From assembly GCA_020060215.1 (NCBI GenBank), contig JAGVAP010000132.1, positions 124,001 to 188,000 on the forward strand: DNA of 64,000 nt. The letters run 5' to 3'. The notes under the pieces were generated by a model. That model saw only the letters and a program-made list of their open reading frames with translations. It was not told the origin of the DNA and made no database searches. Positions 1,593-34,120 of this stretch are shown one piece after another (position 1 is the first letter of the stretch; every line of letters begins with the position of its first letter). Made by a program: the position numbers and the translations under genes. The stretch is from Deltaproteobacteria bacterium (lineage in GTDB: Bacteria; Desulfobacterota; DSM-4660; Desulfatiglandales; HGW-15).

Positions 1593-3032
1593 TTACTGAT
1601 CAGACGGGAGATCTCCGTCGGGGTTGACGGTGCGGGTCGACGCGGAGATACCGTACTTCTTCATCAGGTTCTGAAAATTCGGCCTCTGGAGGCCCACCTT
1701 CTTTGCAGCTCGTGTGACGTTCCAGTCGTTTTTCATCAATGCCTGGAGCACGAAGTTTTTCTCCACCTCCTTGACGGCCGTCTCCCGCATCTCCTTCTTG
1801 ATCTTTTTCAGCTCCTCGTTGTTTTCCGGGATATAGGGCGCCAGGGGACCGACCTCATCCAGCACCGGCAGGTCCTTGAGCGTGATCTCCTCCCCATCAC
1901 AGAGGATCACCGCCCGCTCGATGACGTTCTTCAACTGGCGCACGTTGCCAGGCCAGTCGTAGGAGGTCAGCCTGGCCAGGCCTTCCTTGCTGAAGCTCCG
2001 GACGGCCTTGCCCGTCTTCGTGCAGAACTGGCGGAGGAAGTGATCGGAAATGGCCAGCACGTCGCCCCTTCTCTCCCTCAGGGGCGGGGTGAAGATGGGG
2101 TAAACGAAGATGCGGTAATAGAAATCCTCCCTGAACGATCCCTGTTTGACCATCTCCATGAGGTCCCGGTTCGTGGCGAAGATCAGCCTCACGTCCACCT
2201 TCTGCTTGGCCGTGGCGCCCAGGGGCAGGTACTCCCGCGTCTCGATGAAACGCAGGAGCCTGCTCTGCACCTCCAGACTGATGTTGCTGATCTCGTCGAG
2301 GAAGACGGTCCCCTGATCGGCCATCTTGAAGATGCCGTCCTTGTTTCGAAATGCGCCCGTGAAAGCCCCCTTCATGTAGCCGAAGAGCTCACTCTCGAGG
2401 AGGTTTCCCGAGAGGGTCCCGCAGTCCACCGCGAAGAAGACCTTGTCCTTGCGCCGGCTGTTGGCGTGGATGGCCCTGGCGATCAGCTCCTTTCCCGTCC
2501 CGCTCTCTCCCCAGATGAGGACCGTGGAATCGGTCGGGGCCACCTTGCCGATCATCCCGATCACCGCGCGTATCTTCGGGCTGTCCCCTACGAGCTGATG
2601 GGTGACGGCCCCGATGGACATGATCCCCTTCTCCGACGATTTGCGATCGATCCGAAGCTCCCGCTCCGCCAGGGCCCGCCGTACGCCGCTTCTCAGTTCT
2701 TCAGGGGTAAAGGGCTTCGGGAGATAGTCAAAGGCCCCCATGCGCATGACCTCCACCGCCGAGGAGACCGTGGCGTACCCGGTAATCACGATCACCGGGG
2801 ATTCGGGCAGGGACTCCTTGACCCTTCTCAGGACCTCCATGCCGCCCATGCTGCTCATCTTCAGGTCGGTAATGATCAGGTCGGCCGGTTCCCGGTCCAG
2901 CCACTTCAGGGCATCGTACCCATTCAGCGCGTAATCCACCCGGTAACCCTCTTTGGCCAGGATCTTGACGCAGCTGCGGCAGATCCCTATCTCGTCGTCG
3001 ACGACCAGGATCCTGGGGATGCTACCGGCCAT
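1593..3032 (-). CDS. Sigma-54-dependent NtrC-family response regulator
   Basis: A 479-residue transcription activator. The receiver (1-120) has VVDDE, ITDLKMS and a KPF lysine. The AAA+ core has Walker A GESGTGKE, the sigma-54 contact loop GAFTGA (within GYMKGAFTGAF), Walker B TVFLDEIS and the arginine-finger region FREDFYYR. The C-terminal Fis-type HTH is near 440-465 (NVTRAAKKVGLQRPNFQNL). ATG at 3032 follows a GAGGAG Shine-Dalgarno and overlaps the kinase gene by 11 bp, so the two are a translationally coupled sensor-regulator pair. A plausible target is the sigma-54-like promoter just downstream at 1332-1347. Confidence 0.95.
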   Translation of the reverse strand: MAGSIPRILVVDDEIGICRSCVKILAKEGYRVDYALNGYDALKWLDREPADLIITDLKMSSMGGMEVLRRVKESLPESPVIVITGYATVSSAVEVMRMGAFDYLPKPFTPEELRSGVRRALAERELRIDRKSSEKGIMSIGAVTHQLVGDSPKIRAVIGMIGKVAPTDSTVLIWGESGTGKELIARAIHANSRRKDKVFFAVDCGTLSGNLLESELFGYMKGAFTGAFRNKDGIFKMADQGTVFLDEISNISLEVQSRLLRFIETREYLPLGATAKQKVDVRLIFATNRDLMEMVKQGSFREDFYYRIFVYPIFTPPLRERRGDVLAISDHFLRQFCTKTGKAVRSFSKEGLARLTSYDWPGNVRQLKNVIERAVILCDGEEITLKDLPVLDEVGPLAPYIPENNEELKKIKKEMRETAVKEVEKNFVLQALMKNDWNVTRAAKKVGLQRPNFQNLMKKYGISASTRTVNPDGDLPSDQ

Positions 3033-4452
3033 TGTCGTCTCCTCGCGCCACCGGTAGGCGGATTCGGAATGTCGTCCCCTGCCCTTCCCGGCTCTCTACT
3101 TCAATGGACCCGCCGTGGCGCTGGATGATCCCGTGGGTGATGGCAAGGCCGAGCCCGGTGCCGCTATCCTTGGTCGTGAAAAAGGGGTCGAATACATGAT
3201 CCAGCTCGCTTTCGGGTATCCCTGTCCCGGTGTCGCTCACCGTCACTTCGACAGACTTCTTGTCAGGAAGGGCGAGGGTGGTGAACCGGATCTTGCCTCC
3301 CGGCCCCGATGCCTCGATCGCGTTCAGGGCAAGATTGATGAAGGACTGCTGGATCTGGTCTTTGTCCAGGAGGGCCGAGGGCAGATCGCCGGAGAGGTTG
3401 ATCTCGAATTCGACATCCTTGAAGGCCGCCTGTTTCCTGGTGAGCGCGACGGTCTCCCGGACGATGTCGTTGACGTCCTGCGGGGCCTTGGTGGGCCTGC
3501 TCTGGCGTGCAAAGGTCAGGAGGCTCGTCACGATCTTTCGGCACCGCAGCGTCTCATTGACGATGGTCCGAAGCTCTTCGTAGTTCGGCTCATCCTCCTT
3601 CATATCCTCCTGGATGAGCATGGCCGTGGTCAGGATCGTGGTCAGGGGGTTGTTGATTTCGTGGGCCACGCCCGCGGCGAGCTGGCCGATGGAGGCCATC
3701 TTCTCCTGGTGGAAGAGGTTCTTCTCGAGGAGGATGTCCCTCGTGATATCCTTGGAGATCTCGACCGCCCCGACCACCTCCTCGTTTTCAAACACGGGGT
3801 AGCAGGAGATCGAGAAGTAGAGCTCCCTCCCCTTCTTATCCTTGTGGATGTGAGTCGCCTGTGAATGATTCTTCTTCTCCAGACAGCTCTTCAGAGGGCA
3901 AGGGTGATCCGAACCGTCGCACGGGTCCCTCCTTCCATGGGATATCTCGTAGCAGTGCCTCCCCATCACCTCTTCACGGGTGAGGCCCAGTTTGTGCAGC
4001 ATGGCCTCATTGATGTCGATGATATCGTAGTCGCGGCTGATCAGGAGGACGTCCTCCTGAAGGAAGGCGTTGATGGCCGCGCTGTAGCGGATCCTCAGTT
4101 CCTCCAGTTCGTGCTTTGCCTGCTCAAAAAGGGCAAAGCCCAGGAGCATCTCCAGGAAAAGTTGTGCGTTACTGCCGCACAGCCAACTCCCGCCGGGCCC
4201 GCGCTCATCGGAATTCCCGCCGGCGCCTTTCCCATTTCTCAGGTCGACGACGAGGTCGATATCGCGGCCCGAGAGGTCCCCGACATCACTCGTGACCAAG
4301 AGGTCTTCATGGACGGACTCCTCCTTCCAGGACAATGGGTCGGGATCCACCACGGCCACCAGCCTGGGGTAGTTTTCAGGATGGGAGTGTCTGTGGAGGA
4401 GGCTCCATAGCCGACGGACCTTTTCTCCTCCCTGGATGACGGCTAAATTCAT
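3022..4452 (-). CDS. PAS histidine kinase with N-terminal nucleotide-binding-like domain
   Basis: 476 residues, no membrane segment, so probably a cytoplasmic sensor. Residues 1 to about 100 (MNLAVIQGG, LVAVVDPDP, DIDLVVDLR) resemble a Rossmann-like half-domain with a Gly-rich first turn. A PAS domain follows (about 130-250) with several Cys residues around RDPCDGSDHPCPLKSC, which could bind metal or report redox state (inference). The DHp helix has VAHEINNPLTTI; the HATPase has INLALNAIEA, DTGTGIP and GTGLGL. All catalytic boxes are intact. It is paired with the overlapping NtrC-type regulator. Confidence 0.92.
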   Translation of the reverse strand: MNLAVIQGGEKVRRLWSLLHRHSHPENYPRLVAVVDPDPLSWKEESVHEDLLVTSDVGDLSGRDIDLVVDLRNGKGAGGNSDERGPGGSWLCGSNAQLFLEMLLGFALFEQAKHELEELRIRYSAAINAFLQEDVLLISRDYDIIDINEAMLHKLGLTREEVMGRHCYEISHGRRDPCDGSDHPCPLKSCLEKKNHSQATHIHKDKKGRELYFSISCYPVFENEEVVGAVEISKDITRDILLEKNLFHQEKMASIGQLAAGVAHEINNPLTTILTTAMLIQEDMKEDEPNYEELRTIVNETLRCRKIVTSLLTFARQSRPTKAPQDVNDIVRETVALTRKQAAFKDVEFEINLSGDLPSALLDKDQIQQSFINLALNAIEASGPGGKIRFTTLALPDKKSVEVTVSDTGTGIPESELDHVFDPFFTTKDSGTGLGLAITHGIIQRHGGSIEVESREGQGTTFRIRLPVARGDDNGR

Positions 4453-4465
4453 TGGACCGCACCTC

Positions 4466-4864
4466 TCATCCCGTCTTCAGGATTCCGCGGACGACCTGAA
4501 GGAGCTCATCGGGCTCGGGTGGTTTTTCGATGTAGGCCTCCGGCTCCGGGATCTTCTCACCCTTGTATTCATCCAGGACCTTCTGCGAGTGGAAAAAGGT
4601 CTTCTTCGAAAGGGCCGAGAGCATGACCACGGGGATGTTCTTGAGCTCCGGATCGGTCCTCAGCTCGCGGTAGAGGGTAATGCCGCTTTCCCTGGGCATC
4701 ATGACGTCCAGGATGACCAGAGAGGGCTTGCTCTTGCGCGCCGCCTCAAGGCCCTGGATCCCGTCCTCGGCAACCACCGGTTTGAACCCGTTGGTCTCCA
4801 GAAGGGTGGTCACGAAGGTCCTCATGTCCAGCTCGTCATCGACAACCAGGACTTTTTTCGCCAT
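4466..4864 (-). CDS. Single-domain response regulator (CheY-like)
   Basis: 132 residues from the ATG at 4864 (MAKKVLVVDDE); an ATG 15 bp upstream is also possible. The acidic pocket VVDDE, phospho-Asp in VILDVMMP and Lys in YIEKPPEP are present. There is no output domain, but a short insertion after the fourth strand (LSKKTFFHSQKVLDEYKGEKIPEPEAY) lengthens the surface before the conserved Lys. It ends 13 bp before the histidine kinase and probably accepts phosphate from a kinase in this locus. Confidence 0.9.
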   Translation of the reverse strand: MAKKVLVVDDELDMRTFVTTLLETNGFKPVVAEDGIQGLEAARKSKPSLVILDVMMPRESGITLYRELRTDPELKNIPVVMLSALSKKTFFHSQKVLDEYKGEKIPEPEAYIEKPPEPDELLQVVRGILKTG

Positions 4865-5006
4865 ATCGGTCCCCTTCATGAAATCATCTCCCTGAGGGGT
4901 TCGATGATTTCACATAGCGCGACGTTGTCGCTTGGTTATGCTGCTTCTCTCCCTTCCCTTGGAAGCGTTGAAGCCGCGCAGCATGAAATCGCTGCAAGGG
5001 ATTTCA

Positions 5007-5504
5007 TCAGTACATGCTCCCCGGCAGGGTGAACTGCCTTGCGGGGTTTCGGATCGCGATGACATGACAGTGGGCATATCTGGACACGTTCGCAACCGTG
5101 CTGCCGTGGACCATGCGGTCCTGCTCGGCCTTGCCGAGCGCCCCCATGACGATAACATCGATATCGTTCTTCTTGGCATAGCGGATGATCTCCATGTCCG
5201 GGGCTCCGCATTTGACCACGAAGAGGACATCCATGGAGGGGTCCAGCTTTCCTCCGTATTCGCTCTTCAACGTTTCGAGCGCCGCCTTCTCGACCCTCTC
5301 GTCGTAGAAGAGCTCTCCTCCCGGCGAACCGGCCGGGACATGCTCGTCCACGATATGCCTGCAATAGGAGTAGGACGAATGGGGGACGTGGAAAATGTGG
5401 AGCTTGGCCCCGTGTTTTCGGGTCAGATCGAGGGCATGGAGGAAACCGATATCGGCGTCCTCGGAAAAGTCCGTCGCAAAGAGAATGTTCCTGTACTCGA
5501 CCAT
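5007..5504 (-). CDS. Universal stress protein, UspA family
   Basis: 165 residues covering one Usp domain. The N-terminus YRNILFATDFSE is the usual first strand. Near the C-terminus GALGKAEQDRMVHGSTVANV fits the ATP-binding pattern G-2x-G-9x-G-S/T, so this is probably the nucleotide-binding subclass. It sits inside the signalling locus in the same orientation. A role as energy or nucleotide sensor for the neighbouring kinases is inference. Confidence 0.93.
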   Translation of the reverse strand: MVEYRNILFATDFSEDADIGFLHALDLTRKHGAKLHIFHVPHSSYSYCRHIVDEHVPAGSPGGELFYDERVEKAALETLKSEYGGKLDPSMDVLFVVKCGAPDMEIIRYAKKNDIDVIVMGALGKAEQDRMVHGSTVANVSRYAHCHVIAIRNPARQFTLPGSMY

Positions 5505-5587: not shown

Positions 5588-5622
5588 CGACGGGTTACCG
5601 CTTCGCTCCACCCATCCTACGG
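5588..5622 (-). repeat. Dispersed repeat, GGATGGGTGGAGCGAAGCGG family
   Basis: The minus strand holds AGGATGGGTGGAGCGAAGCG followed by GGTAACCC. The same 21-base core recurs at 17527 with a longer palindromic partner. The repeat abuts the stop codon of the receiver-kinase gene ending at 5617. Confidence 0.7.
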
Positions 5623-6792
5623 GGCTGGCCGTTTGCCCGCGCTCCCAAGGGTGAATCTCTCCCCCTCATTGCTGCCCGGAAGCGTCACGAAGAAGGTGGT
5701 GCCCCTCCCGTTCGCGGACTCCAGGGAGATTTCCCCCCCGTGCTCGTCCACGATCTTCCTGGCGATCATCAACCCCAGGCCGGTCCCCTTGCTCCCTTTG
5801 GTGCTGAAAAAGAGCCGGAAGACCTTCTTCCTGGTCTCCTCGTCCATGCCGCAGCCGTTGTCCGAGACCTGGTACTGCACGGCGGCCGTCTTGGGTTTGA
5901 GAGTCCGCAGGATCACTTGGGGCCTCCTGTTCGGGCAACCGATATCCGTGCATGCATCGAAGGCATTGGTGACCAGGTTCAGGAGGACCCGGTGGATGGA
6001 CTCAGGGTCGAACCAGGCCTGGTCCAGGTCGTCTGCAAGCTCCGCCTTGAAGTCGATCCCCTTTTCCTCCCCCTGTGCCCTCATCAGTTCGTAGACCTCG
6101 CGGGCGGGCCGGTTGGGATCGCAGAGCCGGTATTCGGGCTGTCTTTCTTTGGCGTAGTTCAGGAGGTCCATGGCCACGGACTTGATCTTGACGACATTCC
6201 CCTTGATCATCTCCCAGCCCTGGGTGAGATAGCTCCTCTGCTCCAGCTCGATCCCCTTTTCCAGCACATACATCCCGCCCGTCAGGCCCGACGCGATGTT
6301 CTTGATGGCGTGCGCCAGGCCGGCCACGGTTTGACCCACGGCAGCCAGTCTTTCCGCCTGAAGCAGCTTCTCGGTCTTCTCCTGCACGAGACGCTCGAGA
6401 TCCTCCGTGTACTCCCTCAGCCTGGCCCTGTAAGAGATCTTCTCCATCGCCCTCTTGAGGGCGATGTCGAGGACTTCATCGTCGATGGGTTTCATGATGA
6501 AGTCGGAGGCCTCGTTCTTGAGGCTCTGAACGGCCAGGTCCATGTCCCCGTGTCCCGTGATCATGATCACTTCCGTCTCCGGGCTCTCCTGCTTGATCCT
6601 TCGCAGGACCTCGATCCCGTCCAGCCCCGGCATCTTGATGTCGGTCAGTACAATGGACGGCCGCGTCCCTGCAAAGACCTCCAAGGCCTTTTCCCCGCTG
6701 TCGGCCGTGAATACCTCGTAGCCCCGGTCCGCCAGGGAGATCCCCAGTACCTTCAAGATACCGGGCTCGTCATCCACGAGCAGCATCTTCAT
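5617..6792 (-). CDS. Receiver-histidine kinase hybrid (N-terminal receiver, cytoplasmic)
   Basis: 391 residues from ATG at 6792 (MKMLLVDDEPG), chosen over an upstream TTG because it gives a canonical receiver start 4 bp after the previous stop. Receiver: LVDDE, VLTDIKMP, IMKP. A coiled coil (about 125-155) leads to the DHp helix with LAHAIKNI. HATPase motifs are LVTNAFDA, DNGCGM and GTGLGL. There is no sensory domain, so input probably comes through phosphorylation of the receiver by another kinase, such as the one immediately upstream. The last residues fall in a dispersed repeat. Confidence 0.9.
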   Translation of the reverse strand: MKMLLVDDEPGILKVLGISLADRGYEVFTADSGEKALEVFAGTRPSIVLTDIKMPGLDGIEVLRRIKQESPETEVIMITGHGDMDLAVQSLKNEASDFIMKPIDDEVLDIALKRAMEKISYRARLREYTEDLERLVQEKTEKLLQAERLAAVGQTVAGLAHAIKNIASGLTGGMYVLEKGIELEQRSYLTQGWEMIKGNVVKIKSVAMDLLNYAKERQPEYRLCDPNRPAREVYELMRAQGEEKGIDFKAELADDLDQAWFDPESIHRVLLNLVTNAFDACTDIGCPNRRPQVILRTLKPKTAAVQYQVSDNGCGMDEETRKKVFRLFFSTKGSKGTGLGLMIARKIVDEHGGEISLESANGRGTTFFVTLPGSNEGERFTLGSAGKRPAP

Positions 6793-6796
6793 GTCT

Positions 6797-7963
6797 TCAG
6801 GACTCGCCCCCGGCGGGGAGCCGGACGACAAAGGAGGTCCCTTTTCCCGGCTCCGTCGTCACCCTGATGGTTCCTTCATAATCCCGGACGATCCCATAGC
6901 TGATGGAGAGCCCGAGCCCCGTGCCCTTCCCCGCCTGCTTGGTTGTGAAAAAAGGCTCAAAGATCCTGTCCAGGATCGCACTCGGAATGCCGGTGCCGTT
7001 ATCCGTGACGGTAATCGTCACCATCCCTTCTTCAAGGCCGGTCTTCAGTGCAATCCTTTTCCCTCCCTGGTCGCGACGGGCCTCTTCCCACCTCCGTTCG
7101 ATCGCATCCCTCGCGTTGATCAGGAGATTGATGAAGACCTGTTCCAGCCGGTTCGCGTCCGCCCAGACCCAGGGGAGCTCCGGCACCAGGTCCTGGGTGA
7201 CCTCGATCTCCCTGAGCTTCAACTGCTGTCTGAAGAAATCCAGGGACCTGACCAGGACCTGGTTGACGTCCGTCTTCTCCCTGGTGACCTCCGGCTTTCG
7301 GCCGAATTCCCGCATGTGGTTGATGATCTTGGAAGCCCGATCCAGGTGGCCGTCGATCTCCTCCGACATGGTCCTCAGGATCTCCCTTTCGATGGGCTCA
7401 TCCCGGATCACCTTCCTCTTGAGAAAACTGCAGGCCGTCCTGATGACGGTCAGCGGCTGATTCAGCTCATGGGCCATGCCGGTGGCCATTTCACCCAGCG
7501 TCGCCATCTTGCTTGACTGAATCACCTGCTGCTCGGCGAGCAGACGGGCGGTGATGTCGCTCGTGGTGACCAGAAGGGACTTTCCCGCCGAACCCTCCAG
7601 GGACGAGACCCGGATATTCACGTAGACGGCGGTCCCATCCTTTTTTCTCTGCCTGGCCCGCTCTATGAAGCCCTCGGGGTTCAGCAGAGGCCGGTAGCCC
7701 TCGCTGTCGGCTCCATCGAACAGCGACAGGAAGCACGTTCCGACGAGTTCCCCCCCTTCGAATCCATATACGGCCGTGGCGCTCCGGTTGCAGTCGAGAA
7801 TGGTCAGATCCTCACGGTTCAGGACGAAAAGAGGAGTAGGTATCGTGTGGAAGATGTCTCGATAGCGATCCCCGCAACTCTCGCCCTCGACTTCAAGGGC
7901 CTGTCCATTGTCCCGATCGATGTCCGTCTCCACAGCGCCGTTTTCACCTGCGAAACTGTGCAT
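6797..7963 (-). CDS. PAS-domain sensor histidine kinase
   Basis: 388 residues, soluble. The PAS domain is about 30-150 ([22 protein letters not shown], with an ITAR-type exit). The DHp His is in [12 protein letters not shown], the N-box in [13 protein letters not shown], and the G-boxes in DNGTGIP and GTGLGL. The gene starts 34 bp after the Fe-S subunit stop and runs into the receiver-kinase, so all three are likely co-transcribed. A direct link between the redox enzyme and this kinase is suggested only by position. Confidence 0.93.
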
Positions 7964-7997: not shown

Positions 7998-9293
7998 CTA
8001 CTCTTCCTCTCTGGGGATCATCTCCTCGGGGATCTCCATCCGCTCTGCGATCACTTCCTTGAAGTGCACGGCCTTGGCGTCGATCTTGTACTCCTTGATG
8101 AGGTCCCGGATCTGGTCGATGCAGTTGTGGCAGGGGACCAGGACGATCTTCGCCCCGGTCTCACGGATCTGGTCGGCCTTGACCTTGCCGGCGGCGAGGC
8201 GATACTTCTTCATCTCGCCTCCCATGGGCATGGCGCCGCCTCCCCCTGCGCAGCAGTAGTTGTAATTGCCCTGATGCTTCATGGGCCGGAAGTCCTCGGA
8301 GATCATCTCCGCCAGACGCCTGTTCTTCTCGGCGAGCCCGCCGTTCCGGATGACGTTGCAGGGGTCCTGAACCGTCGTGGGGACCTTGATCTTTTCCTTC
8401 AGTCTGATCCGGCCGTCCCGGAGGTAGTCGTGGAAGAGCTCGACCGAATGGATGACTTCCTGTTTGGGCTCGTAGCCGAGCCAGATCGGCGCTTCGTACC
8501 GAAGCGCTCGGTAGGCGTGGCCTCACTCGGTGATGGCGATCTGTTTCACCCCCAGTTCTTCGGCCCGTTTGAAGGTATTCTCCGCGATCGTCTTTCCTGT
8601 TTCCGGATCATTGATGAACATGGCCAGATTGGTGTCGTCCCATCCCTTCCCGCTCGGGAAGGTCCAGTCCTCACCGGCCACGTGGAAAATCTTGGACACC
8701 TCCATGATATCCTGCGGGTAGAACTTGGGCTCGCGCGCGTTGACCGTGTACAGGATCCTGGCCCCTTTCTTGTCGATGGGGACCTTCAGCCCTATGATCT
8801 CCTCCGCGGTCTCCTCTTCGCACCACTCCAGCGTCTCGACCCACTCCTCATCGGTCACGGCCATCTGGTTGCCGCTTTCCCTGTAATTATCGACCGCCTT
8901 GCGAAGACCCTCGGGCACGATGCCGAGGTACGTGAGGAGCCCTCTCAGCAGGGAGATCATCATCGCGATGTCGATCCCGAAAGGACAGTAGAGGGTGCAG
9001 CGGCGGCACATGTTGCACTCGTAATAGACGGTCTTGTAGACCTCCTGCAGGTATTCCGCGTTCACCCTCCCCTTCTTTTTCAACAGATCCTTCAGGAAAC
9101 GGATCTTGTAGGAAGGGATCATCTTGGGCTCTCTTCCGCTGGAGAGGTAGAAGTGACAGGTATCGGAGCAGAGACCGCAATGGGCACAGATCTTCATCCA
9201 TGTCTTGAATCGGGCCCCCATTCGTGACTTCAGGAAATCCATGATTCGGGCTTCCAGGTTTTCCTGAACGACTGGACGTTTTTCCTCGCTCAT
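7998..9293 (-). CDS. HmcF/DsrK-like Fe-S/CCG-domain oxidoreductase, probable selenoprotein (Sec257)
   Basis: Read through an in-frame TGA at 8523-8525, this is one 431-residue protein. The start at 9293 has an AAGGAG Shine-Dalgarno. Two [4Fe-4S] motifs lie at C36-C39-C42-C46 and C92-C95-C98-C102. A CCG domain follows (C312, C347-C348, C388-C391), typical of HdrD/DsrK/HmcF/TmcB subunits that reduce or oxidise disulfides in the cytoplasm. The TGA falls in ITE-U-GHAYRALRY, where by my recollection relatives have Cys (ECGHA). The downstream stem-loop at 8489-8507 supports recoding as selenocysteine. The alternative is a nonsense mutation, but both halves are intact and in frame. The neighbouring gene encodes its likely cytochrome b partner. 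No sel genes are in the window. Confidence 0.85.
8489..8525 (-). promoter_or_regulatory. Candidate bacterial SECIS element (UGA plus stem-loop)
   Basis: Fifteen bases after the UGA there is a perfect 7-bp stem GCGCUUC/GAAGCGC closing the loop GGUAC. A G-U-containing apical loop about 20 bases beyond the UGA is the known form of bacterial SECIS elements read by SelB. Confidence 0.7.
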
Positions 9294-9368: not shown

Positions 9369-10034
9369 CTACATGGAGTAGCCCCGCCTGCCGAACTCTA
9401 TGCCTGTGGCTCCCCGGGACAGGAAGAACAGGACAAAGTGGGAGAGCTTGGTCAAAGGTATGAGGATGAGCATCAACTCACCGGCCAGGATATGGATCAG
9501 CCTCATGTTGTCGCCGACGAACCCGGCCGAGTCGAGCGTCCCGTGGGTCAGGAAGTACCCGGTCAGAAACGGGAGGGCGGTCGCGACCAGGAGCAGGTAG
9601 TCGGAAAAGGTCGAGATGAGCCGTACCTCCGGGGAAAGGATTCGCCGCATAAAGAAGAAGATGGCTATGGCGACAAGGATGATCGTCATCCAGTCCGACA
9701 ACGTATCCGGGATGGGGGTCCAGGACCAGCCGAACCGGGATTCTTCCCAAAGAGCGATATGGCCGCTGAACCAGATCGGCACGACGATGAGACAGATGTG
9801 GAAGACATAGGCCAGAAAGGTGAATACGGGATTCTTGACGACATCCTTGTTGAAAGGAAGCAGCCACCTCCCAATGGTCGCGAGAACGTACCTCCAGCGG
9901 AAGTAACGATAGATCGGTTTGTCTTTCCTGGTGGAGACCCCCAGGAAGAAGGCCACCCTGAGCAGGCTTCCGATCACGAAGGTCAGGAAGGAAATCCACA
10001 GCAGAGGTCCCTCGGCAAAATCATAGAAGTCCAT
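9369..10034 (-). CDS. HmcE/DsrM/TmcC-like cytochrome b membrane subunit
   Basis: 221 residues from ATG at 10034, preferred over ATG at 10052 because AAGGAGA lies 7 bp before it. About five membrane helices are visible (LLWISFLTFVIGSLL, FTFLAYVFHICLIVVP, MTIILVAIAIFFFM, YLLLVATALPFLTGYFL, LAGELMLILIPL). Candidate heme-b His residues sit in AYVFHICL, FSGHIALW, RLIHILAG and KLSHFVLF, as in the NarI/DsrM family. Its usual role is to pass electrons between menaquinol and an HdrD-like cytoplasmic subunit, here the next gene (75 bp away). No cytochrome c or periplasmic subunit is nearby. Confidence 0.88.
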   Translation of the reverse strand: MDFYDFAEGPLLWISFLTFVIGSLLRVAFFLGVSTRKDKPIYRYFRWRYVLATIGRWLLPFNKDVVKNPVFTFLAYVFHICLIVVPIWFSGHIALWEESRFGWSWTPIPDTLSDWMTIILVAIAIFFFMRRILSPEVRLISTFSDYLLLVATALPFLTGYFLTHGTLDSAGFVGDNMRLIHILAGELMLILIPLTKLSHFVLFFLSRGATGIEFGRRGYSM

Positions 10035-10310
10035 GGCCCCATCTCCTTTCATTCGGCGGGACGATCACCAAGACCCCGAGAACGATCTAAGGCTGATCCT
10101 GCACAGGTGCACCCGTAGTCTACGAGAGATCACGTCAACGAGAAAAGAGCGCGAACGGAGACTCCGTCGAAGCCCTCATACCAGAACCTGCAATGGTCAA
10201 CGGATAACCCGGATGGAAGTCGTTCATCGCCGGTGCGCGTGCGGTCCTTGGACAAGAAACCCTTCTTTGTTCAAGCTCTTAGTCAATTTAAACCCGTCGC
10301 GCTCGCGCAG
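10035..10310. other. Intergenic region upstream of the redox/signalling locus
   Basis: About 275 bp. No gene seen. It should contain the promoter for the leftward hmcE-like operon. I find no convincing sigma-70 or sigma-54 box; a TTGACT on the minus strand near 10290 lacks a good -10 element. Confidence 0.4.
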
Positions 10311-17446: not shown

Positions 17447-17526
17447 GACGAGGGGCGTAAAGAATGGCAAGCTCCTAACAGAGGATGAATTTCCATACGA
17501 ACACTTGAACATCGGACGTAGTGAGC

Positions 17527-17604
17527 AGGATGGGTGGAGCGAAGCGGAACCCATCGGGTTCGGAGCTCCAAAATCGATGGGTTTCGCTTCACTCCACCCA
17601 TCCT
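17527..17604. repeat. Palindromic GGATGGGTGGAGCGAAGCG element
   Basis: AGGATGGGTGGAGCGAAGCG followed by GAACCCATCG pairs with CGATGGGTTTCGCTTCACTC plus CACCCATCCT. A 78-bp imperfect palindrome. The left arm shares 21 bases with the copy at 5588-5622, and AGGATGGGTGG recurs at 30967. Confidence 0.75.
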
Positions 17605-17629
17605 TCTACAAGAAACCCCTGGGTTCTCC

Positions 17630-17745
17630 CATCTTGCATCCCGGGTCGCGGATCCTGGATGCTGTTTCCTGCATCCTGTATCTTGCATCCTGCATCCCGG
17701 TTCCTGTATCTTGCATCCTGCCATCTTGAATCCCCCATCTTGCCA
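17630..17745. repeat. Degenerate direct repeats, CTTGCATCCTG/CCTGTATC family
   Basis: Head-to-tail imperfect units such as CCTGCATCCTGTATCTTGCA and CCTGTATCTTGCATCCTG. The minus-strand string GATACAGGATGCAGGA recurs exactly near 26986-27001 upstream of pyrG. Unit spacing is irregular, so this is not a CRISPR array. Confidence 0.65.
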
Positions 17746-17758
17746 CGAGGTCGTCTGA

Positions 17759-20191
17759 TTGGCCGAAGAATCCAAATGCGTCGTCCGGGTAGCCCTCGCC
17801 CTCCCCGTCAAAGAGACATTCCTCTACTCGGTTCCCCTCCATCTCGCGTCCCGGGCCGGGATCGGCTGCCGGGTCCTCGCACCCTTCCGAAGCCGCAAGG
17901 TCACCGGATACATCCTGGAAGTCGTGGAGGCGGCGGGGACGGAAGACCTCAGGGAGATCGACGAGGTGCTGGATTCCGAACCCCTGTTCCATCCCGGTCT
18001 CGTCCGCTTCCTCTCGTGGTGCGCCGACTATTATCTCTTCCCCCTCGGCAGGTTTGTTCAGGCGGCCCTGCCGGGGGGACTCAATGTCAGGACCCTGCCG
18101 TGCTGCGAGTTGACCCCGTCCGGGTCGAAAATCCTCGACCTCATGGGCACGGACTCCGATGCGGGAAAGGCGCTGGCCTGGATCCGGGACAACCCGCGGG
18201 CAAGGATCCCCCGGAACCTGAAGCAGATCATACCGCTCCTCAGGAAGAACGGCTGGATTGCGGTAGGGGAGAGGACTACCAGGAGGCGGGCGGGCCCCCT
18301 GCTGAAGCGGTTCGTAAAGGTGAGACCCGGGGTGGAGACGGCAAAGGTACTGACGGATTGCCCAGACGGGGAGTTCCTGAAGGCCGTCTTCACGGCAGGG
18401 GAGATCTCTCTCCGGGACATCTGCGGGAGATTCCCGAGAGGAGATCACCTGTGCCGAAAGTGGATTCGAAAGGGGGTCCTGGAAGACTTCAAGAGGCCGG
18501 TCCTGAGGGATACGGCCGGGAACGTCCTCTTCATCTCCCCCCCGCCGGAGCGGCTCTATGAGCAGCAGGAGAAGGCGCTTTGTGAAATCGTCGGTCATCT
18601 CGAAAAGAAGCACTTCTCCACCCTTCTCCTCCATGGGGTGACGGGGAGCGGGAAAACCGAGGTATATTTCGGCGCTGTCAGAAGAGTCATCGACCTCGGA
18701 CGTCAGGCCATCCTCATGGTCCCCGAGATCGCGCTTTCCATCTACATGGAGGGCTTATTCCGCTCCCGGCTCGGCGACAGGGTGGCCGTGTATCACAGCG
18801 GGCTTGGCCCGGGGGAGAGGTTCGACCAGTGGATGCGCATGACCCGGGGCGACGTGGATCTCGTGATCGGCGCGAGGTCCGCCCTCTTCGCGCCTTTCTC
18901 CAGCCTGGGTCTCATCATCGTGGACGAGGAACACGACCCCTCTTACAAGCAGGAGGAAGGCCCCCGCTATCAGGCGAGGGATGCGGCCGTTGCGCGGGGG
19001 AAGATCGAGAAGGCCGTGGTCGTGCTCGGGTCCGCGACCCCCTCCGTCCAGTCCTATCACAACGCCCGGAGCGGAAAGTATCACCTGATCTGCATGCCGG
19101 ACCGGGTTGAGAAGAGGCCGCTGCCTTCCTTCCGCATCGTGGACCTGAGGCGGATCGGCGGCAATGCCAGGAGGCACCCCATCATCAGCCCGATCCTCCG
19201 GGAAGGCCTCGCCTCCACCCTGGTCGAGGGGAGTCAGGCCATGCTGTTCCTCAATCGCAGGGGCTTTCACAGGGTCCAGGTCTGCCGTTTCTGCGGGAAG
19301 TCGGTATGCTGCCCCAACTGCGACCTGCCCCTCATCCACCACCTGAAGGAGGCGCGCCTTGCATGCCACTACTGCGGTTTTCAGACCGATCTCAAGAGGA
19401 CATGCCCGTCCTGCGCCAGGGACGGAATGAAGTTGTACGGATTCGGCACCGAGCGGCTGGAGTCCGAGGTGAAAGAGTGCTGCCCTGCCGGCCGCGTGGC
19501 CAGGATGGACCGGGACAGCACCAGAGCGAAGGGGGAGACCTTTCGTCTCCTCAAGAGATTCGGAGAAGGACAAGTGGATTTCCTCGTGGGGACCCAGATG
19601 ATCACCAAGGGATATGACTTCCCGAACGTGACCCTGGTGGGGGTCATCAATGCGGATGCCACCCTCGGATTCCCAGACTTCCGCGCTGCGGAGCGGACCT
19701 TCCAGCTTCTCTCGCAGGTAGGAGGCAGGGCCGGACGGGGGGAGCGAAGAGGAGAGGTGGTGGTCCAGACGTTCAATCCCGAACACTATGCCGTGAGGGC
19801 GGCGAGAGACCATGATTATCTCTCCTTTTTCGACAGAGAGGTGGAGTTGCGGGGGCAGCTCGGTTACCCTCCTTTTTCCTTCATGGCCTGCCTGAAACTG
19901 CAGGGCGGCAGCGAGAAGGAGACGGAAGATGTGGGCCGGAGGATCGGAGAGGCCATGCGCCGCACCCTTGAAAAATGGCCCAGGAGGGGGAAGGAGGTGC
20001 AGGTCCTCGGCCCGGCAGAGGCCCCCATTTCCAAGCTGAAGGGAAGGTATCGCAGGCAGATCCTGGTGAAGAGCAGGACGACCGGGATGCTCCACTACTT
20101 TCTCGGGGAGGTGGAGGTGTTGGCCAGGAAGATGCTCCGATCGACCGGGGTGGAGATGATCATCGATGTGGATCCGTATCAGATGCTGTAG
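17759..20191 (+). CDS. priA: Primosomal protein N' (replication-restart helicase PriA)
   Basis: 810 residues from TTG at 17759. N-terminal 3'-DNA-binding domain (VALALPVKETFLYSVP), superfamily 2 helicase core with Walker A GVTGSGKTEVYF, DEEH box IIVDEEHDPSYKQ, and zinc-binding Cys pairs (CRFCGKSVCCPNC, CHYCG, CPSC) inserted before the second RecA lobe (GTQMITKGYDFPNVTLVGV). The family loads DnaB at stalled forks. Its upstream region is taken up by repeats, so the promoter is unclear. Confidence 0.96.
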   Translation: MAEESKCVVRVALALPVKETFLYSVPLHLASRAGIGCRVLAPFRSRKVTGYILEVVEAAGTEDLREIDEVLDSEPLFHPGLVRFLSWCADYYLFPLGRFVQAALPGGLNVRTLPCCELTPSGSKILDLMGTDSDAGKALAWIRDNPRARIPRNLKQIIPLLRKNGWIAVGERTTRRRAGPLLKRFVKVRPGVETAKVLTDCPDGEFLKAVFTAGEISLRDICGRFPRGDHLCRKWIRKGVLEDFKRPVLRDTAGNVLFISPPPERLYEQQEKALCEIVGHLEKKHFSTLLLHGVTGSGKTEVYFGAVRRVIDLGRQAILMVPEIALSIYMEGLFRSRLGDRVAVYHSGLGPGERFDQWMRMTRGDVDLVIGARSALFAPFSSLGLIIVDEEHDPSYKQEEGPRYQARDAAVARGKIEKAVVVLGSATPSVQSYHNARSGKYHLICMPDRVEKRPLPSFRIVDLRRIGGNARRHPIISPILREGLASTLVEGSQAMLFLNRRGFHRVQVCRFCGKSVCCPNCDLPLIHHLKEARLACHYCGFQTDLKRTCPSCARDGMKLYGFGTERLESEVKECCPAGRVARMDRDSTRAKGETFRLLKRFGEGQVDFLVGTQMITKGYDFPNVTLVGVINADATLGFPDFRAAERTFQLLSQVGGRAGRGERRGEVVVQTFNPEHYAVRAARDHDYLSFFDREVELRGQLGYPPFSFMACLKLQGGSEKETEDVGRRIGEAMRRTLEKWPRRGKEVQVLGPAEAPISKLKGRYRRQILVKSRTTGMLHYFLGEVEVLARKMLRSTGVEMIIDVDPYQML

Positions 20192-25589: not shown

Positions 25590-26897
25590 CTACTTCTGCT
25601 TGATGATCAGCCTGATCGGCGTCATATCCAGCCCCAAGCGCTCCCTGAGCTGATTGACGAGAAATCGCTGATAGGAGAAGTGGACCTTTTCGGGGTGGTT
25701 CACGAAGAGGACGAAGGTCGGCGGTCTCACCCCGCTCTGGGTCACGTAAGACACCTTCAAGGCGGACCTGCCCGCCTTTGGTGGCGGGTTTTGCCGGATC
25801 ATCTCCTGGACCTGAACGTTTACCTCCGCTGTTCCGATCCTCTTGGAGAACTGTCCATAGAGGCGATCGATCACCCCGAAGATCCGGTTCACCCCCTCCC
25901 CGGTGAGGGCCGAGAGGTTGAGCCTCGGGGCGAACGAAATGAAGTTGAGCTGCCGTTCGAGCCCGGATTCGAGAGGTGTGATCTTCTCCCGGCTCCCCTT
26001 GACCAGGTCCCACTTGTTCACTGCCAGGATGACACCCCTCCCCCGCTCCAGGGCGTAGCCGCATATGCGGGCGTCCTGATCCGCCACCCCGGCGGATGCA
26101 TCGAGCATCACCACCGCCACATGGCATCGGTCCATGCTCCTGAGCGCCTTGACTACCGAAAACCTCTCGATCCTCTCTCTCACCCGCCCCTTTCTTCGGA
26201 TACCCGCCGTGTCGATGAACAGATATTCCCTCCCCTTCCAGGTGCAAAGGATGTCGATGGCGTCCCTCGTCGTGCCCGGGATTTCGCTGACGACCAGCCT
26301 TTCCTCCCCGAGGATCCTGTTGATGAAGGAGGATTTCCCGACGTTCGGTCTCCCGAGGATCGCCACCCTGACCCGCTCATCGTCCGCCGGTTCCGAAGGG
26401 GGGGCCTCCGCTCCTTCGGTCAGGTCGCCCATCAGGTCCCGGAGGCCATAGCCATGGGCGGCGGAAAGGGGGTAGACGCGGGGGAACCCCAGGGAAAAGA
26501 AGTCTGAGGCGAGGTGATCCAGCTCCGGTCCGTCGATCTTGTTCACGGCGAGAAAGACCTCCTTCCCGGTTCTACGCAGGAGCTCCCCGATTTCGCTGTC
26601 ACCGGCCACGATCCCCTGGCGCCCGTCCACCATGAAGATGATCCTGTCCGCCTCTTCGACCGCCTTCAGGACCTGCCCCTTGACCAATGCCAGGATAGGG
26701 TCCGGATCGGACTGGTCGAATCCGCCGGTATCCACAAGGGTGAGCTCCGTCTGATCCCAGCGCACGGCCGCGTAGAGCCGATCCCTCGTCACCCCCGGCT
26801 GATCGTCGACCAGGGCGTCCCGCGACCTGGACAAACGGTTGAAGAGGGTCGATTTTCCGACATTCGGCCTTCCCACGATTGCGACTACGATCGCCAT
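25590..26897 (-). CDS. der: Ribosome biogenesis GTPase Der (EngA)
   Basis: 435 residues with two consecutive GTPase domains and a KH-like tail. Domain 1: GRPNVGKSTLFN, DTGGF, NKID. Domain 2: GRPNVGKSSFIN, DTAGIRRKG, NKWD. The C-terminal KH-like part has GRSALKVSYVTQSG and RLGLDMTPIRL. The double-G-domain layout is unique to Der, which acts in 50S subunit assembly. Confidence 0.97.
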   Translation of the reverse strand: MAIVVAIVGRPNVGKSTLFNRLSRSRDALVDDQPGVTRDRLYAAVRWDQTELTLVDTGGFDQSDPDPILALVKGQVLKAVEEADRIIFMVDGRQGIVAGDSEIGELLRRTGKEVFLAVNKIDGPELDHLASDFFSLGFPRVYPLSAAHGYGLRDLMGDLTEGAEAPPSEPADDERVRVAILGRPNVGKSSFINRILGEERLVVSEIPGTTRDAIDILCTWKGREYLFIDTAGIRRKGRVRERIERFSVVKALRSMDRCHVAVVMLDASAGVADQDARICGYALERGRGVILAVNKWDLVKGSREKITPLESGLERQLNFISFAPRLNLSALTGEGVNRIFGVIDRLYGQFSKRIGTAEVNVQVQEMIRQNPPPKAGRSALKVSYVTQSGVRPPTFVLFVNHPEKVHFSYQRFLVNQLRERLGLDMTPIRLIIKQK

Positions 26898-26956
26898 ACC
26901 CCCCCTTGCACCCCATGGAATCGTTTCAATGTAGCCGGTCTGAAATGGGCGGTCAA

Positions 26957-27150
26957 CATGCAGGATTCAGGAAGCCCGAATGCTGGATACAGGATGCAGG
27001 ATCCAGGACGCAAGGATACACAGGCGTTGAGCCCCAAAAACCGTCCCGTGCGAGGCGCGGTGGTGCAAGTCGAGCAAATCGAAGCCACCCAAAAGGTGTG
27101 GGTGCAAGCCAGGGCTGAAACCCTGAACCCCGAACCCGGAGCCCTTGAAC
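26957..27150. repeat. Mosaic of short dispersed repeats upstream of pyrG
   Basis: CAGGATTCAGGAAGCCCGAA, then GCTGGATACAGGATGCAGG and ATCCAGGACGCAAGG (same family as 17630-17745), and further on AACCCTGAACCCCGAACCC. The spacer between der and pyrG is built largely from these strings. Confidence 0.6.
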
Positions 27151-27171
27151 CTCTCCGACTACATATTGTAC

Positions 27172-27200
27172 TTGAATCTCCAACCTGCCTTTTATATGGT
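27172..27200 (+). promoter_or_regulatory. Candidate sigma-70 promoter of pyrG
   Basis: TTGAAT, 17-bp spacer, TATGGT. It places the start about 40 nt before the pyrG ATG. Confidence 0.4.
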
Positions 27201-27247
27201 ATCCGATCAGGGTGATTTCTCCAGGACCCCGACCTTTTCGGAGTTTC

Positions 27248-32875: not shown

Positions 32876-32952
32876 CGGGACGTGGCTCAGTCTGGTAGAG
32901 CACCGCGTTCGGGACGCGGGAGTCGCTGGTTCAAATCCAGTCGTCCCGACCA
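32876..32952 (+). tRNA. tRNA-Pro (anticodon CGG)
   Basis: Acceptor CGGGACG pairs with CGTCCCG; CCA is encoded. D-arm GCTC/GAGC, anticodon stem CCGCG/CGCGG with loop TTCGGGA (anticodon CGG at 32910-32912), T-arm GCTGG-TTCAAAT-CCAGT. All cloverleaf elements are present. Confidence 0.97.
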
Positions 32953-33016: not shown

Positions 33017-34120
33017 TAGGGGACGTACATAAGATAATAAATTGACAAGGGCGCCTGTTAGGGGATAAATGATCATATGCCCCGCAAGTCAAGAATAGAC
33101 GCAGCCGGTGCTTTGCACCATATCATCGGTCGAGGAATCGCACGAAGAGCCGTTTTCTTGGACGATCATGACCGGGATGACTTTCTGAAACGGTTGAGTG
33201 AGATCGTGACCAAGACGAACACCGCCTGCTATGCCTGGGCACTGATCCCAAACCATTTTCACCTTCTATTGAGGACGGGAACGCTTCCCCTCTCTTGCGT
33301 AATGAAAAGGCTGCTCACAGGTTATGCAGTCTCTTTCAACTTAAGGCACAGGCGCCAGGGTCATCTTTTTCAGAACCGATACAAGTCCATCCTGTGCGAG
33401 GAAGAGCTCTACTTGTTGGAGCTGGTCCGCTACATTCACCTCAACCCGCTGCGAGCCGGACTGGTGGGTGAGTATGCAGAGCTAGCTAAATTCCCGTATT
33501 GTGGTCATAGCGTGATCTTAGGGAAGAGAAAGAGGGAATGGCAGGACGTGGACTACGTTCTCCGCTTCTTCGGCAGTGTCGAAGGCGGAGCCCGGCTTAT
33601 GTACCGGAACTATGTAAAACAGGGAATCGAGCGGGGGAACCGGCCAGAGTTGGTGGGAGGAGGACTATTGCGCAGTCAGGGCGGATGGGCTGGTTTAAAG
33701 GCGCTGAGGGAGTCTGGGGACTATCAGAAAGGTGATGAGCGAATTCTGGGAGACGGAGCTTTTGTCGAGCAGGCACTGGCAGCGTCTGAGGAGCTTTTGG
33801 AGAGGAGACACCGGCTGCGTGCCGGGGGGTACGATCTGGAACGAGTAGCCAGACGAGTTGCCGAAGTGGTAGGGATGACTCCTGAAGAAGCGCTGCGACC
33901 GGGCAAAGTGAGGGAGCGCCTCAAATCAACTGCTCGCAGCATCCTGTGCTACTGGGCGACCGTAGAGATAGGAGTGAAACAGTCCTTGTTGGCCAAGGTG
34001 TTAGGTATCACCCAGCCGGCGATCAGCATTGCAGCAAAGAGAGGGGCGGAGTTTTTAAGAAAACATCATTATTCTCTCGAGGAGTGATTCAATTTATGAT
34101 TTTATGTACATCCCCCCCTA
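33017..34120 (+). mobile_element. RAYT-type (IS200/Y1-like) element with terminal inverted repeats
   Basis: The transposase gene is flanked by a left end TAGGGGACGTACATAAGATA (33017 onward) and a right end (34086-34120) whose complement begins TAGGGGGGGATGTACATAAA. Both continue with ATAAATTGA. These imperfect 30-bp ends mark the probable element boundaries. It sits 17 bp beyond the tRNA-Pro terminator. Confidence 0.7.
33077..34087 (+). CDS. REP-associated tyrosine transposase-like protein (TnpA_REP family)
   Basis: 336 residues. N-terminal Y1 transposase domain: HHIIGRGIARRAVFLDD, HUH motif in IPNHFHLLLRT, and the tail helix NRYKSILCEEELYLLELVRYIHLNPLRAGL with the candidate catalytic Tyr. 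The C-terminal third (about 250-330) is a DnaA-like HTH (DLERVARRVAEVVGM, LLAKVLGITQPAIS), frequent in the long RAYT subclass. The enzyme would nick single-stranded DNA at hairpin ends. Base composition is lower in GC than the neighbours, in line with transfer. Confidence 0.9.
   Translation: MPRKSRIDAAGALHHIIGRGIARRAVFLDDHDRDDFLKRLSEIVTKTNTACYAWALIPNHFHLLLRTGTLPLSCVMKRLLTGYAVSFNLRHRRQGHLFQNRYKSILCEEELYLLELVRYIHLNPLRAGLVGEYAELAKFPYCGHSVILGKRKREWQDVDYVLRFFGSVEGGARLMYRNYVKQGIERGNRPELVGGGLLRSQGGWAGLKALRESGDYQKGDERILGDGAFVEQALAASEELLERRHRLRAGGYDLERVARRVAEVVGMTPEEALRPGKVRERLKSTARSILCYWATVEIGVKQSLLAKVLGITQPAISIAAKRGAEFLRKHHYSLEE

Follow-up and report, generated by a model that had tools for sequence, protein, structure and literature searches.

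Selenocysteine (Sec) is already known from iron-sulfur (Fe-S) oxidoreductases of the GlpC type. In the sections of the literature drawn on here, five such proteins were listed in 2006 (PMC1794560), and a count from 2016 gave 47, spread over 31 organisms (PMC5029168); the type was recorded again in the genome of a marine deltaproteobacterium (PMC8318568), the group was named once more in a 2022 review (PMC9312934), and a 2026 review assigned to it the motif UGH (PMC13188914). Sec-containing HdrD4 and HdrF2 have also been described in Desulfobacterium autotrophicum HRM2 (PMC2702500). The site and the type of chemistry considered below are therefore not new. As for the related membrane complexes, Tmc variants without TmcA are reported from Seep-SRB1 (PMC10553843), and a cluster of kinase and stress-protein genes adjoins the Hmc/Tmc genes of D. 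multivorans; among the five Sec genes named for that organism in the section cited there is none for a Tmc or Hmc subunit (PMC5109826). The gene presented here lies on the minus strand of a 64,000-nucleotide stretch of contig JAGVAP010000132.1 from a Deltaproteobacteria bacterium (this whole stretch being the window), and encodes a CCG-domain Fe-S protein resembling HmcF and TmcB. It is, with near certainty, a functional selenoprotein gene, whose UGA codon 257 is decoded as Sec by SelB with the aid of a Sec insertion sequence (SECIS) just behind it.

The reading frame begins with ATG at 9293, ends with TAG at 7998 and holds a single internal stop, TGA at 8525-8523, which when translated as Sec becomes residue 257 of a 431-residue protein, in the context ITE-U-GHAYRAL. 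Pfam domains are found at residues 33-107 (4Fe-4S dicluster) and 307-395 (CCG). These coordinates and the in-frame TGA agree with a preliminary description of the locus, in which the strand was left unstated. The same description foresaw that gene callers would split the gene, as indeed they do, since its first half is listed alone in the protein database as a 256-residue entry (P0031). It also expected Cys at site 257 in relatives. A protein search scored 8000 candidates and recognised 3912 of them as relatives; in 117 of the 120 relatives listed residue 257 is Cys, and the remaining three (P0031, P0101 and P0105) stop just before it. Two of these, P0101 and P0105, are 84 and 83% identical, lie on other contigs, and both end exactly at residue 256. 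At the nucleotide level, 80 related loci were taken from genome contigs, giving 87 aligned stretches that span the site; its codon is TGA in 27, TGC or TGT in 60, and nothing else. The TGA stretches comprise 24 close loci (52.8-86% identity), one of them in a record named Delta proteobacterium NaphS2 (L014), and three distant paralogues (at most 35%). The segment downstream of the TGA is under purifying selection. Compared with the nearest relative, L001, it is 93.7% identical in protein with a ratio of nonsynonymous to synonymous substitution rates (dN/dS) of 0.033 over 174 codons, against 81.6% and 0.122 for the part before the TGA; the corresponding values for L002 are 85.1% and 0.106 behind the TGA, and 75.1% and 0.105 before it.

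The preliminary description had further pointed to a perfect 7-bp stem closing the loop GGUAC 15 bases past the TGA, and this hairpin is present at 8507-8489 (GCGCUUC-GGUAC-GAAGCGC). The window has 2161 TGA triplets, both strands counted, and the one at 8525-8523 alone is followed at +15 by a perfect stem of 7 bp with a 5-nt loop. When these residues are recoded synonymously, just 306 of 200,000 versions yield such a stem. Folding energy relative to shuffled sequences is less telling evidence for a SECIS than this rarity: z is -2.6 for 43 nt, -1.8 for 53 nt and -3.4 for 78 nt, with 6, 12 and 2 of 200 shuffles, respectively, folding equally well. The stem was also compared among relatives, using aligned stretches of at least 40% identity (25 with TGA, window included, and 56 with Cys). 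All seven pairs form in 22 of the 25 TGA sequences and six in the other three, whereas no Cys sequence forms seven; the Cys mean is 2.6 pairs, with L030 and L033 reaching six. The stem thus tracks the TGA and not merely the protein sequence. In the stem columns 98.2% of cells are paired, as compared with at most 51.8% for slid versions of the stem. One further locus, L099 (in G078), carries TGT (Cys) and, behind it, a stem that keeps six of the seven pairs, as read from its sequence; this looks like a fossil SECIS left by a recent change from Sec to Cys.

Components of the Sec machinery were sought in the genomes of the relatives, 23 of the 24 close TGA loci lying in searchable genomes (L028 was left out). 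SelA exceeded its cut-off in all 23 genomes and SelB in 20; SelD was found in 19, and all 20 SelD matches themselves contain a TGA. For tRNA-Sec a threshold of 70 bits was applied in place of the family cut-off of 47, because five of 14 control genomes pass the latter; matches of this strength occur in 19 of the 23. Every one of the 23 genomes has SelA together with SelB or a strong tRNA-Sec, and none is without both of the latter.

Sec is the best reading of the TGA because homologues have Cys at the site, close loci share the TGA codon, the stem is kept in TGA copies, and the machinery is found in relatives. Several points count against this reading. The evidence on the machinery comes from relatives of the window organism, and among the 23 genomes searched SelB above cut-off is missing in G010, G016 and G022, SelD in these three and in G030, and a strong tRNA-Sec in G013, G014, G025 and G026 (88 candidates scored per genome). 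The codon that terminates P0101 and P0105 is not visible. No family in an Rfam search matched the SECIS, and only one stem pair is changed on both sides (in two sequences), a degree of covariation equalled by 91 of 500 shuffles; the case for the SECIS leans on the contrast between Sec and Cys sequences more than on covariation. Even so, the suggestion that the TGA is a nonsense mutation, an assembly error or a true stop, leaving a pseudogene or two proteins, can be dismissed with very little hesitation: although TGA is a normal stop here, terminating 8 of 20 window genes checked, it recurs at the same codon in the 24 close loci, all on other contigs, where the stem is retained, and the protein behind it is under purifying selection. 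Decoding of the TGA as tryptophan, or by general read-through, is hardly more credible, since the aligned residue is Cys and never tryptophan in all examined homologues that reach the site, and neighbouring genes use TGA as an ordinary stop.

Sec and Cys have been exchanged repeatedly during evolution. A rapidly built tree of 94 rows, 28 with Sec and 66 with Cys, in which the site was masked and deep forks are partly unresolved, requires the label to change at least seven times, and all seven changes are forced by starred branches. Sec and Cys paralogues of the clade even occur within one genome bin (L019 and L023). More distant CCG paralogues with TGA at this UGH motif as well (UGHAYFATRLG, UGHAYLATRYG) were noted at L029:9427-10641, L035:9724-10872 and near position 584 of L073 (minus strand); they are perhaps of the published GlpC type. 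In addition, G001, G009, G014, G019, G025, G027 and G035 are each listed with at least one more DsrK-family paralogue having an in-frame TGA. CCG-family selenoproteins may be numerous in bacteria related to the window organism.

The preliminary interpretation is supported, but its label of this protein as HmcF/DsrK-like needs refining. The protein does match HmcF, TmcB and DsrK over their full lengths, but its NCBIfam scores lie far under the curated cut-offs: 445.5 bits against 750 for HmcF (NF045711), 436.2 against 735 for TmcB (NF045724), and 199.3 against 400 for DsrK (NF045796). An identity as DsrK was rejected on this score and because true DsrK genes, without a stop and scoring 704-739 bits, exist elsewhere in all seven relatives' genomes searched. 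Relatives with Sec (L001, L029) and with Cys (L003, L021) score in the same middle range, whereas a true HmcF (L047) reaches 862.9 bits and a TmcB-type protein (L043) 714.5, just under the cut-off. The low scores and the separate DsrK genes place the protein in a third clade, close to HmcF and TmcB. Its inclusion in HmcF, TmcB or DsrK proper, for which the full-length matches might speak, is improbable on the same grounds; TGA-bearing tree rows moreover fall outside the 43-row all-Cys group that contains L047, on a tree with several deep forks unresolved.

Directly upstream lies a gene (10052-9369) for a putative membrane anchor, which scores 215.3 bits against TmcC (NF045723), close below the cut-off of 240, and 163.3 against HmcE (cut-off 275), with no match to a Pfam family. 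By coordinates, an anchor homologue is directly upstream in all 24 close TGA loci; an automatic filter counted 21, missing L016, L018 and L019. This conserved gene order makes it highly probable that the two proteins would form a two-subunit membrane complex, in which the Sec protein would be the cytoplasmic Fe-S subunit. The envisaged electron path would join the quinone pool and the anchor to two cubane clusters and one noncubane [4Fe-4S] cluster.

Alignment with EtfD bears on the role of Sec257. All six ligands of the EtfD noncubane cluster D2 are kept (C312, C347, C348, C388, C391 and H259), H259 corresponding to the noncubane ligand H583. Sec257 itself aligns with C581, a ligand of the first CCG cluster; that cluster has lost its other ligands, with A260 at the position of C584 and, by eye, no Cys at those of C503 and C538. 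Because these ligands are gone, the selenolate would probably face the remaining noncubane cluster, and could react with a substrate of the thiol/disulfide kind, possibly a protein disulfide of the DsrC type. Put as a specific claim, that Sec257 both faces this cluster and reacts with such a substrate has about an even chance. Two observations speak against it. The His equivalent to H259 is said, in the section cited, to render the noncubane cluster of EtfD non-catalytic (PMC13083937), which by analogy would argue against direct attack of a substrate at the noncubane iron. Besides, none of the eight neighbours scanned encodes a substrate protein such as DsrC. The rival view, that Sec257 is a direct iron ligand or a structural neighbour of the noncubane cluster which shifts its potential, and not a substrate-facing nucleophile, is a serious though less favoured possibility. 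It draws on the cluster-binding role of C581 in EtfD and on the noncubane ligand two residues further on; every relative examined, moreover, has either Cys or Sec at this residue, and eight DsrK copies have Cys (ECGH), as would be expected of a ligand. With the equivalents of C584, C503 and C538 missing, and no other conserved Cys listed in the first CCG half besides site 257, there would however be no complete first cluster for Sec257 to bind. We infer a quinone-linked thiol/disulfide oxidoreductase with Sec facing the noncubane cluster, and consider the explanation as a whole, namely a selenoprotein gene for the Fe-S subunit of a membrane complex with a noncubane-facing Sec, to be well founded.

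Features of the locus are collected in Table 1. The genes that follow the selenoprotein gene encode mostly signalling proteins. The four nearest downstream genes, for a PAS kinase, a receiver-kinase protein, a universal stress protein and a receiver domain, all recur (at least 45% identity, within 6 kb) in six of the 24 close TGA loci (L001, L010, L011, L012, L014 and L015), and at least one of them in nine, many contigs ending too early to tell; L009, L013, L026 and L029 offer more than 5 kb of room and have none of the four. The downstream two-component genes may tune expression of the selenoprotein gene to the redox or substrate state. At L029:81-7242 the anchor and the Sec subunit stand beside upstream open reading frames (ORFs) that we take to be HdrA-like and methylene-tetrahydrofolate reductase-like, and a connection with one-carbon metabolism may exist at that locus. 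Elsewhere in the window, QDTGCRMQD-like text recurs in ORF translations at 17521-17811 and 26885-27215, suggesting intergenic repeats. An ORF at 33077-34087 (plus strand), presumably for a REP-associated (Y1) transposase, is immediately preceded by a tRNA-Pro at 32876-32952.

Table 1. Positions of the selenoprotein gene, its decoding signals and adjacent genes in the window.
Feature	Coordinates	Strand	Remarks
Selenoprotein gene, HmcF/TmcB-like CCG-domain Fe-S subunit, 431 aa, Sec at 257	7998..9293	minus	
In-frame TGA, codon of U257	8523..8525	minus	TGA at same codon in 24 close loci; Cys in 117/120 listed homologues
Bacterial SECIS stem-loop, 7-bp stem, loop GGUAC, 15 nt after TGA	8489..8507	minus	
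TmcC/HmcE-like membrane anchor gene, directly upstream	9369..10052	minus	215.3 bits TmcC; 163.3 HmcE
PAS histidine kinase, next gene downstream, beside some relatives too	6797..7963	minus	
Response-regulator/histidine-kinase protein	5617..6831	minus	same direction
Universal stress protein	5007..5504	minus	same direction
Stand-alone receiver domain	4466..4879	minus	same direction
PAS histidine kinase, possible end of same transcription unit	3022..4452	minus	operon extent inferred from spacing
Sigma-54-dependent response regulator, may close the same transcription unit	1593..3032	minus	operon extent inferred from spacing

What would pass for a pseudogene thus becomes a membrane-linked respiratory selenoprotein, which automatic annotation splits, leaving 256-residue stubs in the database. 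The coexistence of Sec and Cys versions, even as paralogues in one bin, provides a natural test of the benefit of selenium, and this test concerns the sole Cys that the first CCG half retains in the DsrK/HmcF/TmcB fold.

Of the described systems, the 'Fe-S oxidoreductase-like' selenoproteins (GlpC, COG0247, PTHR43551; e.g. WP_174406253.1) share with the window protein the superfamily and the U-G-H Sec motif, as given in the sections cited (PMC13188914, PMC9312934, PMC1794560); the window protein has the CCG Pfam match and carries Sec in UGHAYRAL, in line with the motif set out in the 2026 review (PMC13188914). Their published context in deltaproteobacteria is an hdrA-frhD-frhG-frhA operon (PMC1794560), perhaps not a required one, whereas the neighbours here are the TmcC/HmcE-like anchor and a signalling cluster with two-component genes. 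In the parts of the open-licence PMC literature covered, no description was found of an HmcF/TmcB-like subunit that contains Sec and is paired with a TmcC-like anchor, nor of Sec in a DsrK-type protein; an earlier mention may exist in the 2007 paper on the selenoproteome of the Olavius algarvensis symbionts. The clade and the complex seem undescribed. HdrD4 and HdrF2 of D. autotrophicum HRM2 are likewise CCG-domain proteins with Sec in a sulfate reducer (PMC2702500), but HdrF fuses the membrane and CCG parts and HdrD is without a membrane part, unlike the pair of genes found here.

Closer in overall design are HmcF and TmcB of sulfate reducers, which share homology along the whole length, the HmcE/TmcC type of partner and Cys at site 257; the window protein differs from them in its scores below cut-off, in Sec for Cys, and in having no c-type cytochrome among its eight Pfam-scanned neighbours. 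DsrK of DsrMKJOP reads ECGH here, all eight copies looked at having Cys where the window protein has Sec, but is only 24-28% identical and is encoded separately in the same genomes. EtfD of Mycobacterium smegmatis and HdrB of methanogens have the same fold, and the D2 ligands of EtfD are all conserved; unlike in these proteins, the first CCG cluster is apparently lost, and Sec257 stands alone at one of its ligand positions. It is tempting to speculate, if only tentatively, that the clade may represent a third branch of the Hmc/Tmc/Dsr type, in which the first Hdr cluster would have been replaced by one Sec opposite the noncubane cluster. Anaerobic lineages of deltaproteobacteria would thereby possess a quinone-linked disulfide reductase of the selenol/Fe-S type, in which Sec and Cys were exchanged repeatedly.
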